A program made the translations under genes and the position numbers. This document shows positions 6,308 to 14,573 of a DNA stretch of 64,000 nt, piece after piece. The notes under the pieces are model-generated. The model made no database searches. It was not told the DNA's origin and was given only the letters and a program-made list of their open reading frames with translations. Within the stretch, counting starts at the first letter, position 1, and every line of letters starts with the position of its first letter. This DNA is from Labrenzia sp. R4_2 (GTDB taxonomy: Bacteria; Pseudomonadota; Alphaproteobacteria; Rhizobiales; Stappiaceae), in the NCBI RefSeq assembly GCF_017743865.1, contig NZ_JAGHRJ010000001.1, positions 930,001-994,000 on the forward strand. The letters are read 5' to 3'.

Positions 6308-6766
6308 TTACTTTGCCTCATTGGAAGGTATTATTGAAGCTTATCTTTTGATTGCAGTAAGTTGTTGGTTTTTGACTTGGCTGTCAAATAAAATCCGACG
6401 TGAAGACGAATGTTCGTGATTTTGTCGTAAACCATCCACGGGTAATGCTTGAGGTTTGATCGCATTGATCAATTTCTGGCCGTCACCTGCCCAGAAGCTG
6501 AGCGGCAATACAAGATTGGTCTTGTCGTATGTCTGTAATAGACATGTTGCGCTGCGGTATTGCTTTGACGGTCAGACCGGGAAGGCCGCTGTTCCCAAGC
6601 CCGCCGGGCATTGCCGACGCCAGCGGATAAACCGCATTACACCGCTTTTTTGGATGTTTTTTTTGCCGAAAGCGCATTTCGTGGTCCCATGTTGCTTCAA
6701 GTCAAGGTGCACTTGGTGGTACACGGGCTTTAATTGCATGTGCCAAGACCCACGGATCGATCAAAT
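6308..6766. other. Long divergent intergenic region (regulator / fpr)
   Basis: This 459-base gap carries no convincing gene. It holds a TTTGAC/GTCAAA inverted repeat at 6371-6388 near the regulator start, an ATGTCT/AGACAT inverted repeat at 6529-6545, and a short AGCGG/CCGCT hairpin (6622-6646) followed by six Ts. That last pattern could end a small transcript arising inside the gap. No known RNA family was recognised. Confidence 0.35.
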
Positions 6767-7579
6767 ATGAACGTACTTGCCAAACCCGCAGATCTCGCAG
6801 ACGCCGCCCCAGCCGGTGTCTTCGTGGAAGAGGTCAAGACTGTCCAGCACTATACCGACCGGCTGTTCCGCTTCCGGATGACCCGGCCGTCCAGCTTCCG
6901 GTTCCGCTCCGGCGAGTTTGTCATGATCGGTCTGATGATCGATGGCAAACCGCTTTACCGCGCGTACTCGATCGCAAGCCCGGCATGGGATGAAGAGCTT
7001 GAGTTCTTTTCCATTAAGGTGCCGGACGGGCCGCTGACATCTCATCTTCAGAAGATCCAGCCGGGTGATGCGGTTCTGATGAAAAAGAAACCAACGGGCA
7101 CATTGGTCAACGATGCGCTCGTTCCGGGCAAGCGGGTCTACATGTTCTCAACGGGTACCGGGATTGCGCCGTTCGCCAGCCTGATCCGGGATCCAGACAC
7201 CTATGAGAAGTTCGATCAGGTGATCCTGACCCACACCTGCCGGGAAGTGGCTGAACTGAAATATGGTGAGGACCTTGTTCAGGAAACACTCAATGATCCG
7301 CTGATCGGTGAGTTCGCGAAAGACAAGCTGATTCACTACACCTCGGTCACCCGCGAAGACTTCCCGCGCAAGGGCCGGATCACCGACCTGATCCAGTCAG
7401 GCAAACTGTTTGAAGACCTCGGCGTTCCGCCACTTGATCCGGCGATCGACCGCGGCATGATCTGCGGCTCGATGGACATGTTGCGCGATACCAAGGCGTT
7501 ATTGGAAGAAGCGGGTCTCACCGAAGGCGCTAACAACAAGCCGGCAGAATTCGTTGTCGAACGCGCTTTCGTCGGCTGA
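6767..7579 (+). CDS. fpr: Ferredoxin-NADP+ reductase (bacterial subclass I)
   Basis: A 270-residue FAD enzyme that exchanges electrons between NADPH and ferredoxin or flavodoxin in the cytoplasm. The FAD-binding RAYS motif is at residues 65-68, followed by EFFSIKVPDGPLTSHL, the pyrophosphate-binding KKPTGTL, and the NADPH-side STGTGIAPFASLIRD and CGSMDM. The C-terminus AEFVVERAFVG is typical of the short bacterial type, often made under oxidative stress. ATG 6767 is preferred over the TTG at 6734, since the family starts here. The gene stands alone and ends at the terminator at 7607. Confidence 0.93.
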   Translation: MNVLAKPADLADAAPAGVFVEEVKTVQHYTDRLFRFRMTRPSSFRFRSGEFVMIGLMIDGKPLYRAYSIASPAWDEELEFFSIKVPDGPLTSHLQKIQPGDAVLMKKKPTGTLVNDALVPGKRVYMFSTGTGIAPFASLIRDPDTYEKFDQVILTHTCREVAELKYGEDLVQETLNDPLIGEFAKDKLIHYTSVTREDFPRKGRITDLIQSGKLFEDLGVPPLDPAIDRGMICGSMDMLRDTKALLEEAGLTEGANNKPAEFVVERAFVG

Positions 7580-7803: not shown

Positions 7804-8658
7804 ATGGATACCCGCAATAAGATCTACGTGATTGCCGAAATTGGCATCAATCACAACGGAGATTTGAATAAGGCTTTAGAATTGGTTCGCCAAGCCAAAC
7901 AAGCGGGGTGCGACGCAGTCAAATTTCAAAAGCGTACAATTGACGTCGTCTACACAGAGGAGGAGTTGGCCAAACCCCGCGAAAATGTTTTTGGCGCAAC
8001 AAATGGCGATCTAAAGCGTGGGCTGGAGTTTGGCAGTGTTGAGTACGACGCGATCGATGCAGAAGCCCGGAAAGTTGGCATAGATTGGTTCGCATCGCCA
8101 TGGGACGAACAATCCGTCGATTTCTTGCTGGGTTACGAGACACCGTACATCAAAATAGCGTCAGCCATGGTGACGGATCGGGAATTCCTCGTTCACTGCG
8201 CCAAGACCGAACGACCGCTTCTCGTGTCCACTGGAATGTGCGATTTGCCGGTAGTTCAGAAGGCTGTCCAGGTTATTGAAGATGCTGGTGGCACCGTTGC
8301 TTGTCTCTACCACTGCACGTCCACCTATCCGACACAAGATAGTGACATCAATTTACGAGGTATAGAGACACTGGCTTCGGCCTTCCCGCATATCCCGATC
8401 GGCTTTTCAGGTCATGAGCAGGGCACTTTGCCAAGTGTTTGCGCCGCAGCAATGGGCGCTGTTTCAATTGAGCGCCATGTTACATTGGATAGAGCGGATT
8501 GGGGATCGGATCAGAAAGCGTCACTTGAGATGCCGGAAGTCGCAGACCTTGTTGAGCAACTTAGACGGTTTGAAGTTGTTCGCGGCGACGGTGTGCTTCG
8601 CGTTTATGATGACGAAAAGCCCATCGCAGAAAAGCTTCGACGCAATGTAACGCTATAA
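7804..8658 (+). CDS. NeuB-like nonulosonic acid synthase, short form without SAF domain
   Basis: A 284-residue TIM-barrel synthase of the NeuB family, which condenses phosphoenolpyruvate with an amino-hexose to give a nine-carbon sialic-type acid. Visible are IAEIGINHNGDLNKA, VKFQKRT, FASPWDEQSVDFL, YIKIAS, LVSTGM and CTSTYPTQDSDINLRGIETL. The two metal-ligand histidines are retained (H204 in SGHE and H225 in ERHVTLDR). The chain stops at about the end of the barrel. The C-terminal antifreeze-like SAF domain of NeuB, PseI and LegI, which contributes an arginine to the partner's active site, is absent. GGAG lies 8 bases before the ATG. It opens a lower-GC cluster with a NeuA-like gene, so synthesis of an activated keto-sugar is likely, but the acceptor sugar cannot be named. 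Confidence 0.82.
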   Translation: MDTRNKIYVIAEIGINHNGDLNKALELVRQAKQAGCDAVKFQKRTIDVVYTEEELAKPRENVFGATNGDLKRGLEFGSVEYDAIDAEARKVGIDWFASPWDEQSVDFLLGYETPYIKIASAMVTDREFLVHCAKTERPLLVSTGMCDLPVVQKAVQVIEDAGGTVACLYHCTSTYPTQDSDINLRGIETLASAFPHIPIGFSGHEQGTLPSVCAAAMGAVSIERHVTLDRADWGSDQKASLEMPEVADLVEQLRRFEVVRGDGVLRVYDDEKPIAEKLRRNVTL

Positions 8659-8743
8659 TTCATCAGGTGTAGATTAGGGGAAACCTCATCGCCTAATCTT
8701 ACATCTTGAAAACCAATTTTCATTAACTTCGCAAGATCTACAA

Positions 8744-9499
8744 ATGTCTATCATCAACCAGTGTCTCGAGCTTGTTCGCGGAGAAGCTTACTACGTTACT
8801 TATCCGGCGCGTCCGCTGCCGCAAGACTATTGGGAAGCGAAACAAGATCCGGATGGGTTGGTTCGAGATCCAACCGGCGAGCGTGAGATGCGTAAGGAAG
8901 ATGTGCGCTACATTGCCGATTATATAAACGCGCGTGCGCCTGGAACTGTTCTCGACATTGGATTTGGTCTCGGGGAATTGCTGGAACAGATCGACGATAA
9001 GAACACCTGCCACGGTTTGGATCCTTCAGAGCTCGCAGTTGAGGTTGCGCAAAATTGGTGCTCTGCGAAGCTTCGGCGGGGCGTGTTGGAGAGGGGCCAT
9101 TATCCCGGTGAGATGTTTGATGTCGTCGTTGCAAATCATGTAATCGAACATGTTGACGAACCGCTGCCGTTTGTCTCCGAGATATTTAACATCTTGAAGG
9201 CTGGCGGAGATTTCATCTGCGGGACACCCAATTTTGGCAGTGCTGCAGCTCGCGTCTACGGCGAGCGGTTCAGGTTGCTGCACGACCCAACCCATGTCAG
9301 CCTATTCACCGATGATTCCCTGATACGTTTGTTGCGCGATACGGGGTTTATAATTGAGAAAGTCGAGTATCCGTTTTTCGGCACCCGGTTTGCTTCTGTC
9401 GATGCATTTGAATCGATGGTCCGGGGGGACGCGAAAGTCTCACCTGCATTTTGGGGATCTTTTGTAACGGTTGTGGCACGCAAACCGGATCACAAATGA
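8744..9499 (+). CDS. SAM-dependent methyltransferase (class I), glycan cluster
   Basis: A 251-residue class I methyltransferase. The SAM-binding motif I is VLDIGFGLGELL (residues 69-80), followed by CHGLDPSELAVEVA and the motif IV/V region FDVVVANHVIEHVDEPLPFVSEIFN and LKAGGDFICGTPN. Such Methyltransf_11/23 proteins in polysaccharide clusters usually O- or N-methylate sugars or cap glycan chains. It lies between the NeuB-like and NeuA-like genes (85 and 25 bases), probably one transcript. The substrate is unknown. Confidence 0.8.
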   Translation: MSIINQCLELVRGEAYYVTYPARPLPQDYWEAKQDPDGLVRDPTGEREMRKEDVRYIADYINARAPGTVLDIGFGLGELLEQIDDKNTCHGLDPSELAVEVAQNWCSAKLRRGVLERGHYPGEMFDVVVANHVIEHVDEPLPFVSEIFNILKAGGDFICGTPNFGSAAARVYGERFRLLHDPTHVSLFTDDSLIRLLRDTGFIIEKVEYPFFGTRFASVDAFESMVRGDAKVSPAFWGSFVTVVARKPDHK

Positions 9500-9524
9500 A
9501 ACCACGAACATCAGAGAGCTGCCA

Positions 9525-10706
9525 ATGAAAATCGTTGCGGCGATTCCGGCCAGAGGGGGGTCTGTTGGACTTCCAGGCAAAAATATCCGGCCCTTGAACG
9601 GGGTGCCACTAGTGGGACGAACCGTTCGCGCGGCCCGGGGGTCGCGATTCGTGTCTGATGTGTTTGTCTCCAGTGACTCGCAAGACATATTATCAATTGC
9701 AAGCAAGTATGGTGCGATACCAGTGAAGCGTCCTGACGAGCTCTCAGGTCCGAAAGCAAGTTCTGAATCCGCGCTTTTGCATTTGTTGACCTCCCAGCTT
9801 TCGCTTGTCACCGAGCCGCCGGACATTCTTGTGTTCTTGCAATGTACGGCGCCTTTCACACAGGCTCACCATGTTGATCAGGTGATCGAGGCCTTGCTGA
9901 CCAAGGATGCCAACAGTGCGATCTCTGTGGTTGACGATCACGGGTTTTATTGGGAAATCGGCGAAAACGGTGAGGGGCTTGGTATTAACCACGACCCCAA
10001 AAAGCCACGTATCCGCAGACAAGACATCTCGGCACGCTACCGCGAAAATGGAGCAGTTTATGCAATGCGTGTGCCCGAGTTTCTGACGGAAGAGAATCGC
10101 TATTGCGGAAAGACAATTCTCGTTCCTGTAGACTCGACCTGGATAGAAATCGATACCTCGCAAGACTGGGATATGGCGGAAGCCTTTATTCGCACGGAGC
10201 CGTTTACCGGAGAAATCTCAAGACCATTTTCAGGATCAGTAAAAGGGCTCGTAACAGGATTTGCAGGTGTGCATACGAACAATTCGGTCTTCCTCAATCA
10301 GGACGGAACGGAGTCCATTATTTGCAACCGATATGACGAGATCGGTCTGGATCGGCTGATTGGCCATGGAGTTAGCCTGTTGATGGTTGACCGAGAGGAA
10401 GACAAACTGGCGTCCCAGCGCGCGCGTAAGTTGGCAATGGAGTATAAATATCACGCCTTTGATAAAATGCAGATCGTGTCGACCTGGCTGCAAAAACGAC
10501 AGCTTAATTGGTCGGAAATTGCTTATATCGGTGCCGATGTCGCCGATATCAAATGTATGGAAGCCTGTGCCTTTAGTGCAGCGCCGCGGAACGCTTCTTC
10601 CCAAGTAAAAGCCGTTGCTGATGTTGTCCTCGATGCATCAGGAGGCGACGGGGTTTTAAATGAATTGAGTGAGTTATTGATTTCGCACAGTATCGTGCCA
10701 GCATGA
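9525..10706 (+). CDS. CMP-nonulosonate cytidylyltransferase (NeuA-like) fused to a degenerate HAD domain
   Basis: A 393-residue two-domain protein. Residues 1-225 are a NeuA/KdsB-type cytidylyltransferase: IPARGGSVGLPGKNIRPL, FVSSDS, FLQCTAPF, ENGAVYAMR and WIEIDTSQDW. The usual Lys in the GGSKG loop is Val14. Residues 238-390 match the KdsC/HAD phosphatase domain found in some sialic-acid synthetases (GVSLLMVDREEDKLASQRARKL, DKMQIVSTWL, IAYIGADVADIKCM). The motif I aspartates of DxD are Gly245 and Ala247, so phosphatase activity is not expected; K314 and D341 remain. A comparable inactive HAD tail is known in vertebrate CMAS, where it is structural. The start is ATG 9525 with GAGAG upstream; the longer frame from 9471 overlaps the methyltransferase. 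Confidence 0.82.
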   Translation: MKIVAAIPARGGSVGLPGKNIRPLNGVPLVGRTVRAARGSRFVSDVFVSSDSQDILSIASKYGAIPVKRPDELSGPKASSESALLHLLTSQLSLVTEPPDILVFLQCTAPFTQAHHVDQVIEALLTKDANSAISVVDDHGFYWEIGENGEGLGINHDPKKPRIRRQDISARYRENGAVYAMRVPEFLTEENRYCGKTILVPVDSTWIEIDTSQDWDMAEAFIRTEPFTGEISRPFSGSVKGLVTGFAGVHTNNSVFLNQDGTESIICNRYDEIGLDRLIGHGVSLLMVDREEDKLASQRARKLAMEYKYHAFDKMQIVSTWLQKRQLNWSEIAYIGADVADIKCMEACAFSAAPRNASSQVKAVADVVLDASGGDGVLNELSELLISHSIVPA

Positions 10707-10815
10707 ATTTAAAGGCATTGCTACCTGACCGATACTGTGGTTGCACACTGGTCCATGGGTTCGTAATTCTACTGAAGGATAGTGAAGGATTTCTTTGGAG
10801 GGGTAAGGGATTTCG

Positions 10816-11697
10816 ATGACAGATGTATTCCAAATGCTGTCTGATATAGGGGCGGTGGCTAAAGAACATCAGGAATTGTTTGCGCATCGAACGAGGGACC
10901 GTGAGGACCTCAACGTCTATCGAGACCGTTTGTCCGGTGTGATTTACATTGATGGGTTCTACGCTGGAGACGAGGTCTACGAAGACGGTGACTATAGAAA
11001 AGCCAGTCTTTCACGCGCGGGATCACGTGACTATGAAATCATGTGTGATGTGGAACGTAGAGCTGCTGCCTATAGAGCGTTTGTTGCAGGGCGATCAGTA
11101 TTGGAATTTGGCTGCGGCGACGGGGCATTTCTACAGAGGGTACGTGGAGAGGTAACCACTTGTATTGGTGTTGAACTACAGCGGGATTATGTATCAGCAC
11201 TCAACGAAGATGGCATTGAATGCTGCTCTTCTTTAGATAGTTTAGAGGGTTCAACGTACGATACTGTCGTCAGCTTCCATGTGCTGGAGCACCTGCCAGA
11301 TCCAATGTCTGTTCTTTTTGAATTGAAACGCGTTCTGAAACCGGGCGGTATTCTTGTTGTCGAGGTACCTCATGCCAGGGATCTGCTAATCAGCGAACTC
11401 AAAAACAAGGCGTTTACTGACTTTACTCTTTGGAGCCAGCACTTGGTGTTGCACACACGAGAAAGCCTCCGACGTCTTCTGACTGCTGCAGGTTTTGAGA
11501 ACATCATTGTGGAGGGGGTACAGCGCTATTCGCTCTCAAATCACTTGACGTGGCTGTCTAAGGGGGCTCCCGGAGGGCACAAATCTGCCCTTTCTGCAAT
11601 TGATACGCCAGATCTAAAAAAATCATATGAAGCGGCGCTAAACCGGATCGATGCCACCGACACTCTCGTAGCCATTGCTCGTGCACCAGCCCAATGA
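10816..11697 (+). CDS. SAM-dependent methyltransferase, second in the glycan cluster
   Basis: A 293-residue class I methyltransferase with motif I VLEFGCGDGAFLQ (residues 95-107), CIGVELQRDYVSAL, and VVSFHVLEHLPDPMSVLFEL then LKPGGILVVEVPHARD. The first 90 residues form an extra N-terminal region of unknown role (KEHQELFAHRT...YRDRLSGVIYIDGFYAGDEVYEDGDY). TTTGGAGGGG precedes the ATG. Base composition is low for the window: 26 of 60 are G or C at 11,221-11,280. Likely substrate is a sugar nucleotide or a growing glycan, by context only. Confidence 0.78.
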   Translation: MTDVFQMLSDIGAVAKEHQELFAHRTRDREDLNVYRDRLSGVIYIDGFYAGDEVYEDGDYRKASLSRAGSRDYEIMCDVERRAAAYRAFVAGRSVLEFGCGDGAFLQRVRGEVTTCIGVELQRDYVSALNEDGIECCSSLDSLEGSTYDTVVSFHVLEHLPDPMSVLFELKRVLKPGGILVVEVPHARDLLISELKNKAFTDFTLWSQHLVLHTRESLRRLLTAAGFENIIVEGVQRYSLSNHLTWLSKGAPGGHKSALSAIDTPDLKKSYEAALNRIDATDTLVAIARAPAQ

Positions 11698-11713
11698 CTG
11701 GGGTCCCTTCGTT

Positions 11714-13567
11714 TTAAAGACCGAGCCGAGCGTTTCTCTGGTCAGGCGACCAGTCAGACAATTGTTTATCCAGTTCTTTGATAATCTCGGGTACAAACTC
11801 TGCGCATGCTCGATCAGTGTACGAATACATGTAGATCATTGAAGGATACCAAGGTGGATTGTCCTGGCCCAAGAGCAGGGCAGGCTCTTGCGGACCAAAA
11901 CGGATCGTAGGGACATTGTAAATTCCACAGATATCCGCAACGCTCGTATTGGCCGAAACCACAAAGTCGCAGCAGTTTGTGAGAGCAGCTGCACCCAGCA
12001 AGTCGTCAAATAGGTCAACGTCTTCGAAAAAGTTGAATTTTTCCGGAAAACGTTTTTGAAAGTATTGGATCTCCTTGGCGACGGTTGCGTATTGCAAATT
12101 CACAAAGATGGCATCCCTAGATTCAAGAATTGGTGAAAACTCAGGCGCTGACAGATAGAAGCGGGCGCGACTGGCCGCCAGGTTTCGCGACCGCCAGGAG
12201 AAACCGACAACCGGCTTTTCTTCATACCCCTTCAAGCGTTTCAGATAAGAAATCGCTCGGTCTTTCTCGAAAGAATAGACCGGACATCGTGCGTCTTTGA
12301 AAGATTGAAACGTTGGCCGTAAGACACCAGCTAAATCGGCCATACTCATGTGGTAGTCGTAATCGAAAGCTGTTTGCTCTTTGTCTGCATTCATTTTGGC
12401 AAGGCGGGCGGTTGCCTCGGGAAAGGAATAACTAAAGAACTTGGCACCTTTCTCTGAGGTCTCAATAATGACCTTTTCGGCTTTGGCGATAAGTTCAGGT
12501 AGAACCGTTCCGGATTTCAAGGCGTCGCCGAGTCCCTGATCGCCCCATATCATTATCGTTTTGTTCGAGAGGTCTTCGCCGTTCCACAATGGAACTTCAA
12601 ATTTGCGTTTCATCACCGTACCTGACGGATCATCAAAACGTGCCCTGTGAAGCGGCCACCCTCTCTTTAGGTCGCCATTTGCAAGATATGCCAGCGACAA
12701 GTTCCAATCGATAGTAGGCGCGTGATCAGGTGCATTTTTTCTAGCTTTTTTAAGGGCTTTGAGTGATTCCTCGTTTTGCCTGCTCATTAGCAGGCTGACG
12801 CCTAGCGTGACACCTTTGTGATGGTCATAAGGATCAAGCTCGTAAGCTTGCTTCGAATAGTCGACCGCCATACTTGCCTCGTTCATAGAAAACAAAAGGC
12901 GGGCGGCTTCGTGTTTGATATCTGCGTTAGTGGGAAAGCGCTCCAAGGCCTCAGTTAACTCATATTGGCTGGGCTCATACTGCTGCAATTTTAGCCTGCA
13001 TCGGGCGCGTAAAATGTAGTTCTTAGGGTTGTCCGGCTCCAATATCACGGCCTTGATGAAGAAGTTTATTGCATGGTGTGCACGATCGGCAGCGAGAAGT
13101 AGGTTGCCGAAGTTACGGTAAGCGTCTTCGTTATCCGGATCCTCAACGAGCAGGCTTTGAAAGATATACTCAGCCTCTTCGAATTGCTTTTTGTCTGTAA
13201 GTGCAATGCCAGCTATATTTCGTGCTTCGCGTTCTTTGGGGTTAATCGTCAAAGCCTTGTTGCAAACTGCAAGCAGACTATCAGCATCCGCCCCCAGATC
13301 CATCATCGTGCGCGCAAGATTTGCGTAAAAAGGAGCCTGGTTCGGGTCGATCTCAATCGCCTTTTGGATGTATTCAAGTGCGCGTTTCGGATAGCCGAGT
13401 TGGCGGTATGTCACCCCGAGAAGGTGGACAGCATCTGCGTTGTTTGGAGCTTTTTTTACCGCTTGTTTGTAGATGCGCTGGGCTTTTTCGAATTCGCCGG
13501 TCTGTTGCAGAGCGATGCCCTTCAGCAGTCTGTCTCGAATGGTATTGGGCGCTGTTTGCGTTGCCAT
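11714..13567 (-). CDS. TPR protein with C-terminal glycosyltransferase-like domain
   Basis: A 617-residue protein with about seven tetratricopeptide repeats in residues 10-300 (patterns such as AVHLLGVTYRQLGYPKRALE and IEIDPNQAPFYANLA). A C-terminal GT-B-like domain follows, starting at IMIWGDQGLGDAL (residues 338-350) and continuing through VGFSWRSRNLAASRARF, FVNLQYATVAKEIQYF, CDFVVSANTSVADICGIYNVPTIRFG and PPWYPSMIYMY. This layout is common in alphaproteobacteria for TPR glycosyltransferases of uncertain target. It converges on the second methyltransferase with only 16 bases between stops. ATG 13567 is preferred because GAGG lies 9 bases upstream; an earlier ATG at 13582 lacks one. It is the best candidate for the transferase that uses the cluster's activated sugar. 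Confidence 0.72.
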   Translation of the reverse strand: MATQTAPNTIRDRLLKGIALQQTGEFEKAQRIYKQAVKKAPNNADAVHLLGVTYRQLGYPKRALEYIQKAIEIDPNQAPFYANLARTMMDLGADADSLLAVCNKALTINPKEREARNIAGIALTDKKQFEEAEYIFQSLLVEDPDNEDAYRNFGNLLLAADRAHHAINFFIKAVILEPDNPKNYILRARCRLKLQQYEPSQYELTEALERFPTNADIKHEAARLLFSMNEASMAVDYSKQAYELDPYDHHKGVTLGVSLLMSRQNEESLKALKKARKNAPDHAPTIDWNLSLAYLANGDLKRGWPLHRARFDDPSGTVMKRKFEVPLWNGEDLSNKTIMIWGDQGLGDALKSGTVLPELIAKAEKVIIETSEKGAKFFSYSFPEATARLAKMNADKEQTAFDYDYHMSMADLAGVLRPTFQSFKDARCPVYSFEKDRAISYLKRLKGYEEKPVVGFSWRSRNLAASRARFYLSAPEFSPILESRDAIFVNLQYATVAKEIQYFQKRFPEKFNFFEDVDLFDDLLGAAALTNCCDFVVSANTSVADICGIYNVPTIRFGPQEPALLLGQDNPPWYPSMIYMYSYTDRACAEFVPEIIKELDKQLSDWSPDQRNARLGL

Positions 13568-13750
13568 CGTTTTCAGCCTCATCGGGAATCAATCATCCCA
13601 GATTAACAGGCTGTGAAAAATGTGACAGTTGTGCTGATGAAACTGGGCAATTCCCTTGGGGATTGCCTTAGTTTCGAGAGCGGCGAAGAGCGAGCGCAGA
13701 TGAAGCAGGCAAGAGTAGGCTACGAAGACAGGCGTATAAAGCCTCGGCGC

Positions 13751-13824
13751 GGTGGGCGAAACTGGGATTGAACCAGTATCCTTTCCGTCGTGACCGGAAT
13801 GCTCTCCCGCTGGGCTAGTCACCC
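13751..13824 (-). tRNA. tRNA-Val(CAC)-like gene, possibly degenerate
   Basis: The minus strand folds as a cloverleaf: acceptor GGGTGAC/TTCGCCC, D arm GCCC-AGCGGGA-GAGC, perfect anticodon stem TTCCG/CGGAA with loop GTCACGA (anticodon CAC), and a perfect T arm ACTGG-TTCAATC-CCAGT. The conserved U8, A14, G18G19, U33 and TTC of the T loop are present. Odd features are a C-U pair at the base of the acceptor stem, a C-A pair in the D stem, G at position 32, and a 3' end reading ACCG, not ACCA. It may be a functional divergent tRNA or a decaying one. It lies 86 bases downstream of gph and its 3' end faces the glycan cluster. Confidence 0.55.
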
Positions 13825-13910: not shown

Positions 13911-14573
13911 TCAGGTTCGAAGGTCGGCGACTGCATCCGCAAGTTCGTCAAAATGGGAAATGATGCGATCCGGACCAAGTTCACTAACCGGTACAGGCGT
14001 ATATCCAAAATCAACGGCGACAACGGGAATGCCCGCGGCGCGGGCAGCTTTGATGTCGGTTACACTGTCGCCGATCATGATTGAGCCGTCCGGGGTGCCG
14101 CCAGCGCGCTTTATGGCACCCAGGACTGGTTCTGCATAGGGCTTGGAAACGGCGAAGGTATCGCCTCCGACCACCGCATCGAAGTGATCTGTCATATTGA
14201 GCGCGGCAAGCAAGGGCAGCGTAAGGCGCTCGCTCTTGTTGGTGCAAACCGCCAGCTTCCAGCCATCGGCACGGAAACGGTCTAGGGCTGGAACAACACC
14301 ATCGAACGGCCGTGTGTGAACAGCGATGTTGGCAGCGTAGTACTCCAGGAAGTCTTCATAAAGCGGTGTGATCGTCTCGTCCGACCAGGCAATTTCAAGA
14401 TAGTCCAAGCCGCGCTGTAAAAGCACCTTGGCTCCCATGCCAACCATGTTGGCGACCTTGTCCTGAGGAACAGTCCCATGACCAGCGTTGTCCAGAACCG
14501 CATTCAAGCTCGCAACAAGATCTTCCATGGAAGACACGAGTGTGCCGTCCAGATCGAACACAAGTACAGACAT
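13911..14573 (-). CDS. gph: Phosphoglycolate phosphatase-type HAD hydrolase
   Basis: A 220-residue HAD phosphatase with all motifs intact: FDLDGTLVSS (nucleophile Asp, residues 6-15), VCTNKSE, the Lys in VSKPYAEP, and MIGDSVTDIKAARAAG. The helical cap begins SMEDLVASLNAVL. This matches the Gph family, which removes phosphate from 2-phosphoglycolate formed during DNA repair or oxygenase side reactions; other small phosphate esters are possible. It lies downstream of the chemoreceptor gene on the same strand, 125 bases away. Confidence 0.87.
   Translation of the reverse strand: MSVLVFDLDGTLVSSMEDLVASLNAVLDNAGHGTVPQDKVANMVGMGAKVLLQRGLDYLEIAWSDETITPLYEDFLEYYAANIAVHTRPFDGVVPALDRFRADGWKLAVCTNKSERLTLPLLAALNMTDHFDAVVGGDTFAVSKPYAEPVLGAIKRAGGTPDGSIMIGDSVTDIKAARAAGIPVVAVDFGYTPVPVSELGPDRIISHFDELADAVADLRT

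Follow-up and report, generated by a model that had tools for sequence, protein, structure and literature searches.

Gene content of the locus

We analyzed a 64 000-nucleotide stretch of the genome of Labrenzia sp. R4_2 (contig NZ_JAGHRJ010000001.1, positions 930 001 to 994 000; below, the window, in whose numbering coordinates are given). Five genes of this marine bacterium, between 7804 and 13567, most likely serve to make a sialic-acid-like sugar and then to attach it to flagellin. To the right of a gene for an FNR-type reductase (FNR; 6734..7579, plus strand), four genes lie on the plus strand: NeuB-short (7804..8658) encodes a phosphoenolpyruvate (PEP)-condensing nonulosonate synthase without a SAF domain (PF03102, E-value 2.3e-69); MT1 (8744..9499) encodes a class I S-adenosylmethionine (SAM) methyltransferase linked to NeuB-short (PF13489, Methyltransf_23, E-value 2.5e-20); NeuA-HAD (9525..10706) encodes a CMP-sugar synthetase fused to a pseudo-phosphatase of the HAD type (PF02348, with weak NF058599 and KdsC-type matches); and MT2 (10816..11697) encodes a class I SAM methyltransferase linked to the fifth gene (PF13489, E-value 1.3e-25). 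This fifth gene, TPR-GT (11714..13567, minus strand; alternative start at 13582), encodes an FlmG-type glycosyltransferase (GT) with TPR matches and an FlmG-like GT half, and is followed by a tRNA-Val gene at the right border (13751..13824, minus strand; found by ARAGORN and Rfam). The reading frames of all five cassette genes are open. FNR, gph, MCP, NeuB-short, MT1, MT2, TPR-GT and the cassette letters used below are names coined in this analysis. The original prediction, made from the sequence alone, had placed a NeuB-like synthase, two class I methyltransferases, a NeuA-like enzyme and a TPR protein here, and both Pfam and the reading frames agree.

We consider it probable that the locus is an exchangeable flagellin-glycosylation cassette with a Kdn-type sugar (Kdn, 2-keto-3-deoxynonulosonic acid) and an FlmG-type transferase, in which we infer the sugar, its methylation and the acceptor. 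NeuB-short would join PEP to a neutral aldose (mannose or mannose-6-phosphate being the likeliest) and so form a Kdn-type nonulosonate; the NeuA half would activate this sugar with CTP, the dead HAD half having a structural role; MT1, and perhaps MT2, would O-methylate it; and TPR-GT would hold flagellin with its TPR half while the GT half adds the sugar, in the cytoplasm ahead of export.

For comparison we used 45 genomes of the window's genus (family Stappiaceae) within a wider panel of 151 genomes (window's own included), together with 13 loci of the sister genus g4, three of the sister genus g7 and loci of a further genus, g3. Genes in the loci of relatives were called by a simple script and named via BLAST to reference proteins, with Pfam tests for those cited.

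The TPR glycosyltransferase and flagellin

TPR-GT has 622 residues, or 617 if translated from codon 6, which corresponds to coordinate 13567; most of its homologues align only from codon 4–6 onward. A single protein of ∼600 residues with TPR and GT domains is the FlmG-type architecture. An AlphaFold model has a TPR solenoid to about residue 300. The GT half has no Pfam match even at an E-value of 10, the Maf domain (PF20157) included, so Maf or another Pfam-named GT was rejected as its identity, and a PDB sequence search with this half returned eight chance matches (E-value 0.48 or worse). When aligned by hhalign with the GT halves of FlmG-like proteins (Caulobacter sp. Root1455, S45), however, it gave a probability of 100 (E-value 3.6e-40, 277 columns, 26% identity), versus <0.5 for the controls NeuA, MT2 and FNR; the comparison stands in for the FlmG of Caulobacter crescentus itself, and the Root1455 protein is called FlmG on the basis of length (598 residues), architecture and a GNAT gene located two genes downstream. 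The FlmG of C. crescentus has 596 residues, is encoded in an flmGH operon with the acetyltransferase FlmH, and requires both a nonulosonate and its N-terminal flagellin-binding domain (PMC7591256).

The window's genome encodes one full-length TPR-GT, plus two partial TPR matches. At an E-value of 1e-30, TPR-GT is found in 70 of the 151 genomes (45/45 in the window's genus and 25/106 elsewhere). Flagellin is encoded in 131 of the 151: 69 of the 70 genomes with TPR-GT versus 62 of the 81 without (Fisher p 4.6e-5, kinship ignored), the exception, G101, having the weakest TPR-GT match. The sister genera tie the two genes more closely, as TPR-GT lies between FlgI and one to three flagellin genes in all 13 g4 and all three g7 loci, with FlaG in 14 of the 16; in each of the 13 g4 loci the transferase is separated from flagellin by sugar genes, NeuB-short among them in 12. 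One FlgI, one FlaG, one FliX and two flagellins were Pfam-tested, the other g4 and g7 neighbors being named by similarity. The acceptor is thus most likely flagellin, in this strain by extension from its relatives. The original prediction had proposed the TPR protein as the transferase; the FlmG-like GT half and the flagellin neighbors in sister genera bear this out and narrow the acceptor to flagellin.

The sugar could instead be destined for lipopolysaccharide or capsule, with TPR-GT acting there. The cassette is not adjacent to flagellin genes in its own genome, and in Acidobacteria and other groups NeuB-short is found beside genes for short-chain dehydrogenase/reductase (SDR), aminotransferase and other sugar-type proteins. 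Against this stand the flagellin neighborhood in 16 out of 16 g4/g7 loci, the homology of the GT half with an FlmG-like protein, and the absence from the five genes of any flippase, polymerase or further GT; we regard a lipopolysaccharide or capsule role as improbable.

Other loci of the panel place the same families in different company. In Motiliproteus sediminis (L034:9974-16849), a SAF-less NeuB, a pyruvyltransferase-like gene, HAD, NeuA, Maf and flagellin stand in a single row, so that the synthase class of NeuB-short adjoins the other known type of flagellin transferase; L034 is also the only locus with PF20157 among the Pfam-scanned proteins. The classical sialic-acid set of NeuC, SAF-containing NeuB and NeuA lies beside the same transferase family in L177, L182, L183, L203-L206 and L221, which suggests flagellin sialylation. 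A tandem pair of TPR-GT genes, 53% and 63% identical to that of the window, occupies the site in G034 (L190:8740-12513), possibly a step in donor switching.

Cassettes exchanged at one site

The surroundings of TPR-GT were read in all 45 genus genomes, with a reach limited partly by the stretch fetched. Nine cassette types are found: A in nine genomes (window's type), B in 17, C in three, D in four, D2 in one, E in one, F in three, G in two and H in one, with no cassette in four. Type B combines a 607-residue NeuB with a GDP_Man_Dehyd protein; in this NeuB the Pfam matches to SAF (20.3 bits, cut-off 21) and to an isomerase-like domain (22.9 bits, cut-off 31.1) stay below threshold, and both domains are over the cut-off in the NeuB of type D2, so that a NeuB with an isomerase domain is clear at the site in D2 and weak in B. 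Types C and D have a different NeuB and a standalone HAD, types E and F have PF04230 proteins (E adds a class IV aminotransferase and an SDR), and NeuC is present in type G, as in genus g3. G021 was counted under D, yet has a pyruvyltransferase-like gene in common with F. A B12-binding radical SAM protein is encoded in the sugar cassette of three of the four D loci, D2 and H; the loci with it beside the flagellin-type transferase are L144:11045-12781, L143, L146, L181 and L199.

Among the flanks, FNR is found in 42 out of 45 loci, gph/MCP in 37, both in 34 and at least one in all 45, counts that depend in part on the stretch fetched; in both type G loci other genes intervene. The right flank gene gph (13911..14573, minus strand), a phosphoglycolate-phosphatase-like HAD gene (TIGR01449, 181.6 bits versus a cut-off of 180), is present alongside unlike cassettes. 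The edges of the exchanged segment can be seen in two near kin with type B cassettes (G004 and G007): their FNR DNA is 90–100% identical to the window per 60 bases, and identity falls to 25–52% right after it, which makes FNR the left border. In TPR-GT, the first 180–200 bases are 92–100% identical between the window and near kin and the rest ∼50–82%; the right breakpoint lies near codon 65 (∼13370..13400), with 97–100% identity to G007 before it and 52–77% after. These two breakpoints indicate either a swap of the cassette together with most of the transferase gene, or fast divergence of the transferase. Variable sugar genes are thus exchanged at a conserved place.

The base counts given in the original prediction (26 G/C out of 60 in the cassette, 36 out of 60 elsewhere in the window) are correct, and the cassette region has a G+C content of 49.9% versus 56.5% in the remaining window. 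In 28 out of 42 genus loci sharing this left border (window counted) the inner segment is below its flanks, and over the 42 loci the mean difference is 0.9 points; low G+C was therefore rejected as a general hallmark: it marks the cassette of this genome, not the locus in general.

A NeuB without SAF domain and the nature of the sugar

NeuB-short (284 residues) has no SAF (antifreeze-like) domain (PF08666) in a Pfam scan and is the only NeuB match in its genome at an E-value of 0.001. Its model is a TIM barrel (pLDDT 89), with a 285-residue chain, 6ncs, as best PDB match (TM 0.85). We aligned 105 NeuB-short sequences (79 from outside the Stappiaceae and 26 Stappiaceae, window counted). All or nearly all keep E12, K40, Q42, K117, S120, S142, Y175, S202, H204, H225 and D236 (window numbering, by alignment with PDB chains), which we take to be the catalytic positions of Neisseria NeuB. 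Where the Neisseria enzyme has E134, the 105 sequences have M, S, C, L or A, never an acidic residue, and 104 of them have Gly at D214. Arg314 of the SAF domain presumably touches the N-acyl group. NeuB-short has no counterpart of this residue because the SAF domain is absent; going by PDB titles, Arg314 is the target of the 4ipi and 4ipj mutants. A few positions differ between HAD-linked and HAD-less sequences, none of them of known role.

The original prediction had noted the absence of a NeuC-like epimerase at the locus and looked to a standard epimerase set beside orthologues as contrary evidence. The gap extends to the whole genome, in which PF02350 (NeuC/WecB) and NanE have no match and PseB has none over the cut-off (best 195 of 408 bits), and a NeuC-like gene lies within 8 kb of NeuB-short in 0 of 104 loci, several on short contigs (79 non-Stappiaceae and 25 Stappiaceae loci, the latter including L032, Stappia sp. 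BW2). A NeuC gene lies within 8 kb of eight out of eight SAF-containing NeuB genes of one close group (at least 72% identity) found next to this transferase family, and of none of eight more distant ones, so the pairing of SAF and NeuC is not constant. Neither NeuC nor an N-acyl precursor is required for Kdn, so the absence of epimerase and N-acyl genes points to a Kdn-type nonulosonate as the sugar. Kdn-producing bacteria are known (PMC9000132): the KL1/KL2 Kdn capsule of Serratia (∼one twentieth Neu5Ac, N-acetylneuraminic acid) is reported to be made with neuA and an isomerase-domain neuB. The SAF-less NeuB class occurs in many phyla, and in the open-licence literature covered we found no paper naming a substrate for it.

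Ordinary sialic acid (Neu5Ac), for flagellin or a surface glycan, would be consistent with the presence of the NeuB and NeuA families, and the loci of g3, G009, G044 and G122 do have NeuC and SAF-containing NeuB beside the same transferase family. The genome search without NeuC/WecB or NanE (PF07221 lay outside it), the 104 loci and the missing SAF domain speak against Neu5Ac, to which we give little credence.

A stronger contender, although still unlikely, keeps the flagellin locus and changes the sugar: an undescribed ulosonate from another aldose, e.g. an octulosonate or a heptose-derived sugar. The aldose is fixed by no result here, the E134 equivalent is never acidic in NeuB-short, and a GmhA-like phosphoheptose isomerase gene lies within 3 kb of a SAF-less NeuB in 12 of the 79 other loci. 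On the other side, the window cassette has no isomerase or other aldose-making gene, the NeuA half is 79–86% identical across types A and C, suggesting a common activated sugar, and Kdn is the simpler assumption. The part of the original prediction that called for a CMP-activated nonulosonate-type sugar gains support from the FlmG-like GT half and the adjacent flagellins of sister genera, and its 'undescribed type' is dispensable, since Kdn suffices.

The GmhA-linked loci (L038, L040, L060, L068, L069, L083, L089, L091, L094, L095, L102 and L110) might make a heptose-derived ten-carbon keto-sugar. In 36 of the 79 non-Stappiaceae loci (among L035-L107, mostly Gastranaerophilales) the SAF-less NeuB has an FliO-like gene nearby, and in many of them a HAD phosphatase gene flanks it on the opposite side; a flagellar sugar may be common in these non-photosynthetic cyanobacterial kin.

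A CMP-sugar synthetase with a dead HAD domain

NeuA-HAD, the only match of its kind in the genome at an E-value of 1e-5, consists of a NeuA half (residues 1–227; CTP_transf_3, PF02348, E-value 3.1e-20, 73.4 bits versus a cut-off of 22.6) and a HAD half (residues 231–393). The NeuA half misses the PseF equivalog cut-off (115.6 of 205.7 bits), and the best NCBIfam HAD match of the other half is the Kdn-9-phosphate phosphatase family NF058599, below its cut-off (85.6 of 180 bits). The fusion is real, as the original prediction had it; what had gone unremarked is that the HAD has lost its catalytic nucleophile. Its DxD is replaced by G245 and A247 (motif GFAG), and the nucleophile position is G, A or S in all 12 NeuA-HAD fusions of types A and C. 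The motif DFDG is kept by 7/7 standalone HADs of types C and D and by 14/14 fused HADs of L122-L135, with 'fused' judged by distance and L142 left out because its match ended short of the motif. L122-L135 form a second cluster family, which pairs an active NeuA-HAD fusion with a different NeuB and lies elsewhere in genomes of the family and order.

The lost nucleophile led us to reject the fused HAD as the pathway phosphatase. Type C has an additional, active standalone HAD and type A has none; an active HAD lies within 6 kb of NeuB-short in 67 of 79 non-Stappiaceae loci versus 0 of 26 in Stappiaceae (window counted; these loci are not independent). The Stappiaceae enzyme may use an unphosphorylated sugar, or else the phosphatase may be encoded at an unlinked place; two further weak KdsC-type matches occur in the genome, and gph is a conceivable source of this activity. 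Prymnesium is described as likewise having no recognizable Kdn-9-P phosphatase (PMC6200933).

A decaying cassette that makes no sugar would account for the lost nucleophile and for the missing linked phosphatase. All frames are open, however, and between the window and the other members of types A and C the NeuA half is 79–86% identical versus 49–66% for the HAD half. The loss is moreover common to all 12 fusions, which indicates an old loss that does no harm, as it does none in the CMP-sialic acid synthetase of vertebrates; decay is the least probable of the alternatives, and very improbable in itself. The vertebrate enzyme also joins a cytidylyltransferase to a C-terminal HAD-like domain without phosphatase activity (PMC8636478). 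The window enzyme differs in being bacterial, with related bacterial fusions that keep the nucleophile, so its loss looks independent of the vertebrate one.

Several results weigh against a Kdn-type cassette for flagellin. NeuB-short falls far short of the cut-offs both of TIGR03569 (N-acetylneuraminate synthase; 233.4 of 399.65 bits) and of TIGR03586 (PseI; 200.4 of 340.25 bits). The known routes through N-acetylmannosamine, pseudaminic acid and legionaminic acid seem to be absent from the genome only as far as the families searched go: PF07221 (GlcNAc 2-epimerase family) lay outside them and might still supply N-acetylmannosamine. In the genome 12 DegT (PF01041) matches pass the low cut-off of that family (the best at 49 bits), with 73–175 of 360 positions covered in each, and we read these partial matches as other pyridoxal-phosphate enzymes. 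The GT half of the window groups with transferases of type B cassettes, apart from the other eight of type A. The window cassette has no phosphatase despite the active one near NeuB-short in most non-Stappiaceae loci. In the AlphaFold model of TPR-GT, built with two sequences, most of the GT half has pLDDT <50, and the five flagellin matches of the window's genome are all on other contigs.

Methyltransferases

MT1 goes with NeuB-short and MT2 with the transferase. Copies of MT1 with at least 50% identity are found in 9/9 type A loci and in the one type H locus and not in types E or F, and copies of 56–62% identity in ten of the 13 g4 loci. MT2 (at least 50% identity) is found in 31 of the 45 genus loci, namely types A, B and C and two sites without sugar genes; a long branch in the MT2 tree leaves the origin of the window's copy unsettled. 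It is plausible that MT1 or MT2 methylates the sugar. An O-methylated nonulosonate glycan has been described on Shewanella flagellin, with the methyl groups assigned to the outer moiety (PMC3765264).

Two halves of the transferase

The trees of the two halves of TPR-GT differ for type A. With the window set aside, the remaining eight type A genes group as a single clade in the tree of the GT half (SH-aLRT 100; 1 change); in the TPR-half tree the same eight need 4 changes, a single clade being rejected (approximately unbiased (AU) test, p 8.6e-5), and in the FNR tree type A likewise needs 4. This pattern would fit a GT half that reads the donor and a TPR half that reads the acceptor. The case that the GT half follows the sugar is made from type A, with the window set apart from that group after the trees had been seen. 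Two results count against it: when every cassette label is considered, the two trees hardly differ in their number of changes (11 for GT, 12 for TPR), and the GT half of the window sits in the type B clade instead of with the other eight, one clade of all nine type A GT halves being rejected (AU p 5.4e-5). The end branch of the window measures 0.027 for the TPR half against 0.21 for the GT half; for its sister G001 (type B) the values are 0.058 and 0.15. This fits a recent donor switch in the window, but recombination could give the same pattern.

We tentatively propose, while inclining to doubt the whole of it, that the genus kept an FlmG-type transferase while the donor sugar changed repeatedly via swapped neighbors (at least nine types, from NeuC-type sialic acid to a SAF-less methylated Kdn-type sugar), that in the main type A clade it is the GT half, and not the TPR half, that tracks the sugar, and that the window lineage would be a recent switch, with a type B transferase lineage retained and rapid change in its GT half.

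Comparison with known systems and implications

The FlmG system of C. crescentus shares with the window the TPR and GT halves in ∼600 residues and the need for NeuB and a cytidylyltransferase; it differs in using a pseudaminic acid route with genes at several loci (PMC7591256). The window instead has a compact cassette, exchanged at a single site, with a SAF-less NeuB, a NeuA-pseudoHAD fusion and two methyltransferases. Kdn synthesis in Bacteroides and Prymnesium (PMC6200933) and in Serratia (PMC9000132) likewise uses NeuB and NeuA without NeuC, as reported there, but has other acceptors (capsule in Serratia), and here the NeuB has no SAF domain and the HAD is dead. Variable, horizontally exchanged sugar genes are also described in the flagellin glycosylation islands of Enterobacteriaceae and Geobacillus (PMC4875605, PMC5109656), with methylated glycans predicted in the former. 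In contrast to both, an FlmG-type transferase here stays at a site apart from the flagellin genes while the sugar genes change. We found no paper on this locus in the open-licence literature.

Variable flagellin glycosylation islands are thus already known in other groups, and this locus is a variant of that kind. How glycosyltransferases choose their donor sugar, and how that choice changes, is hard to study. Work on reprogramming the donor of FlmG is reported from 2023. The 45 genomes of one genus supply homologous transferases already paired with different sugar pathways, and they include near kin separated by an exchange whose breakpoints are mapped. The fused enzyme, for its part, is a bacterial counterpart to the silent HAD domain of vertebrate CMP-sialic acid synthetase.

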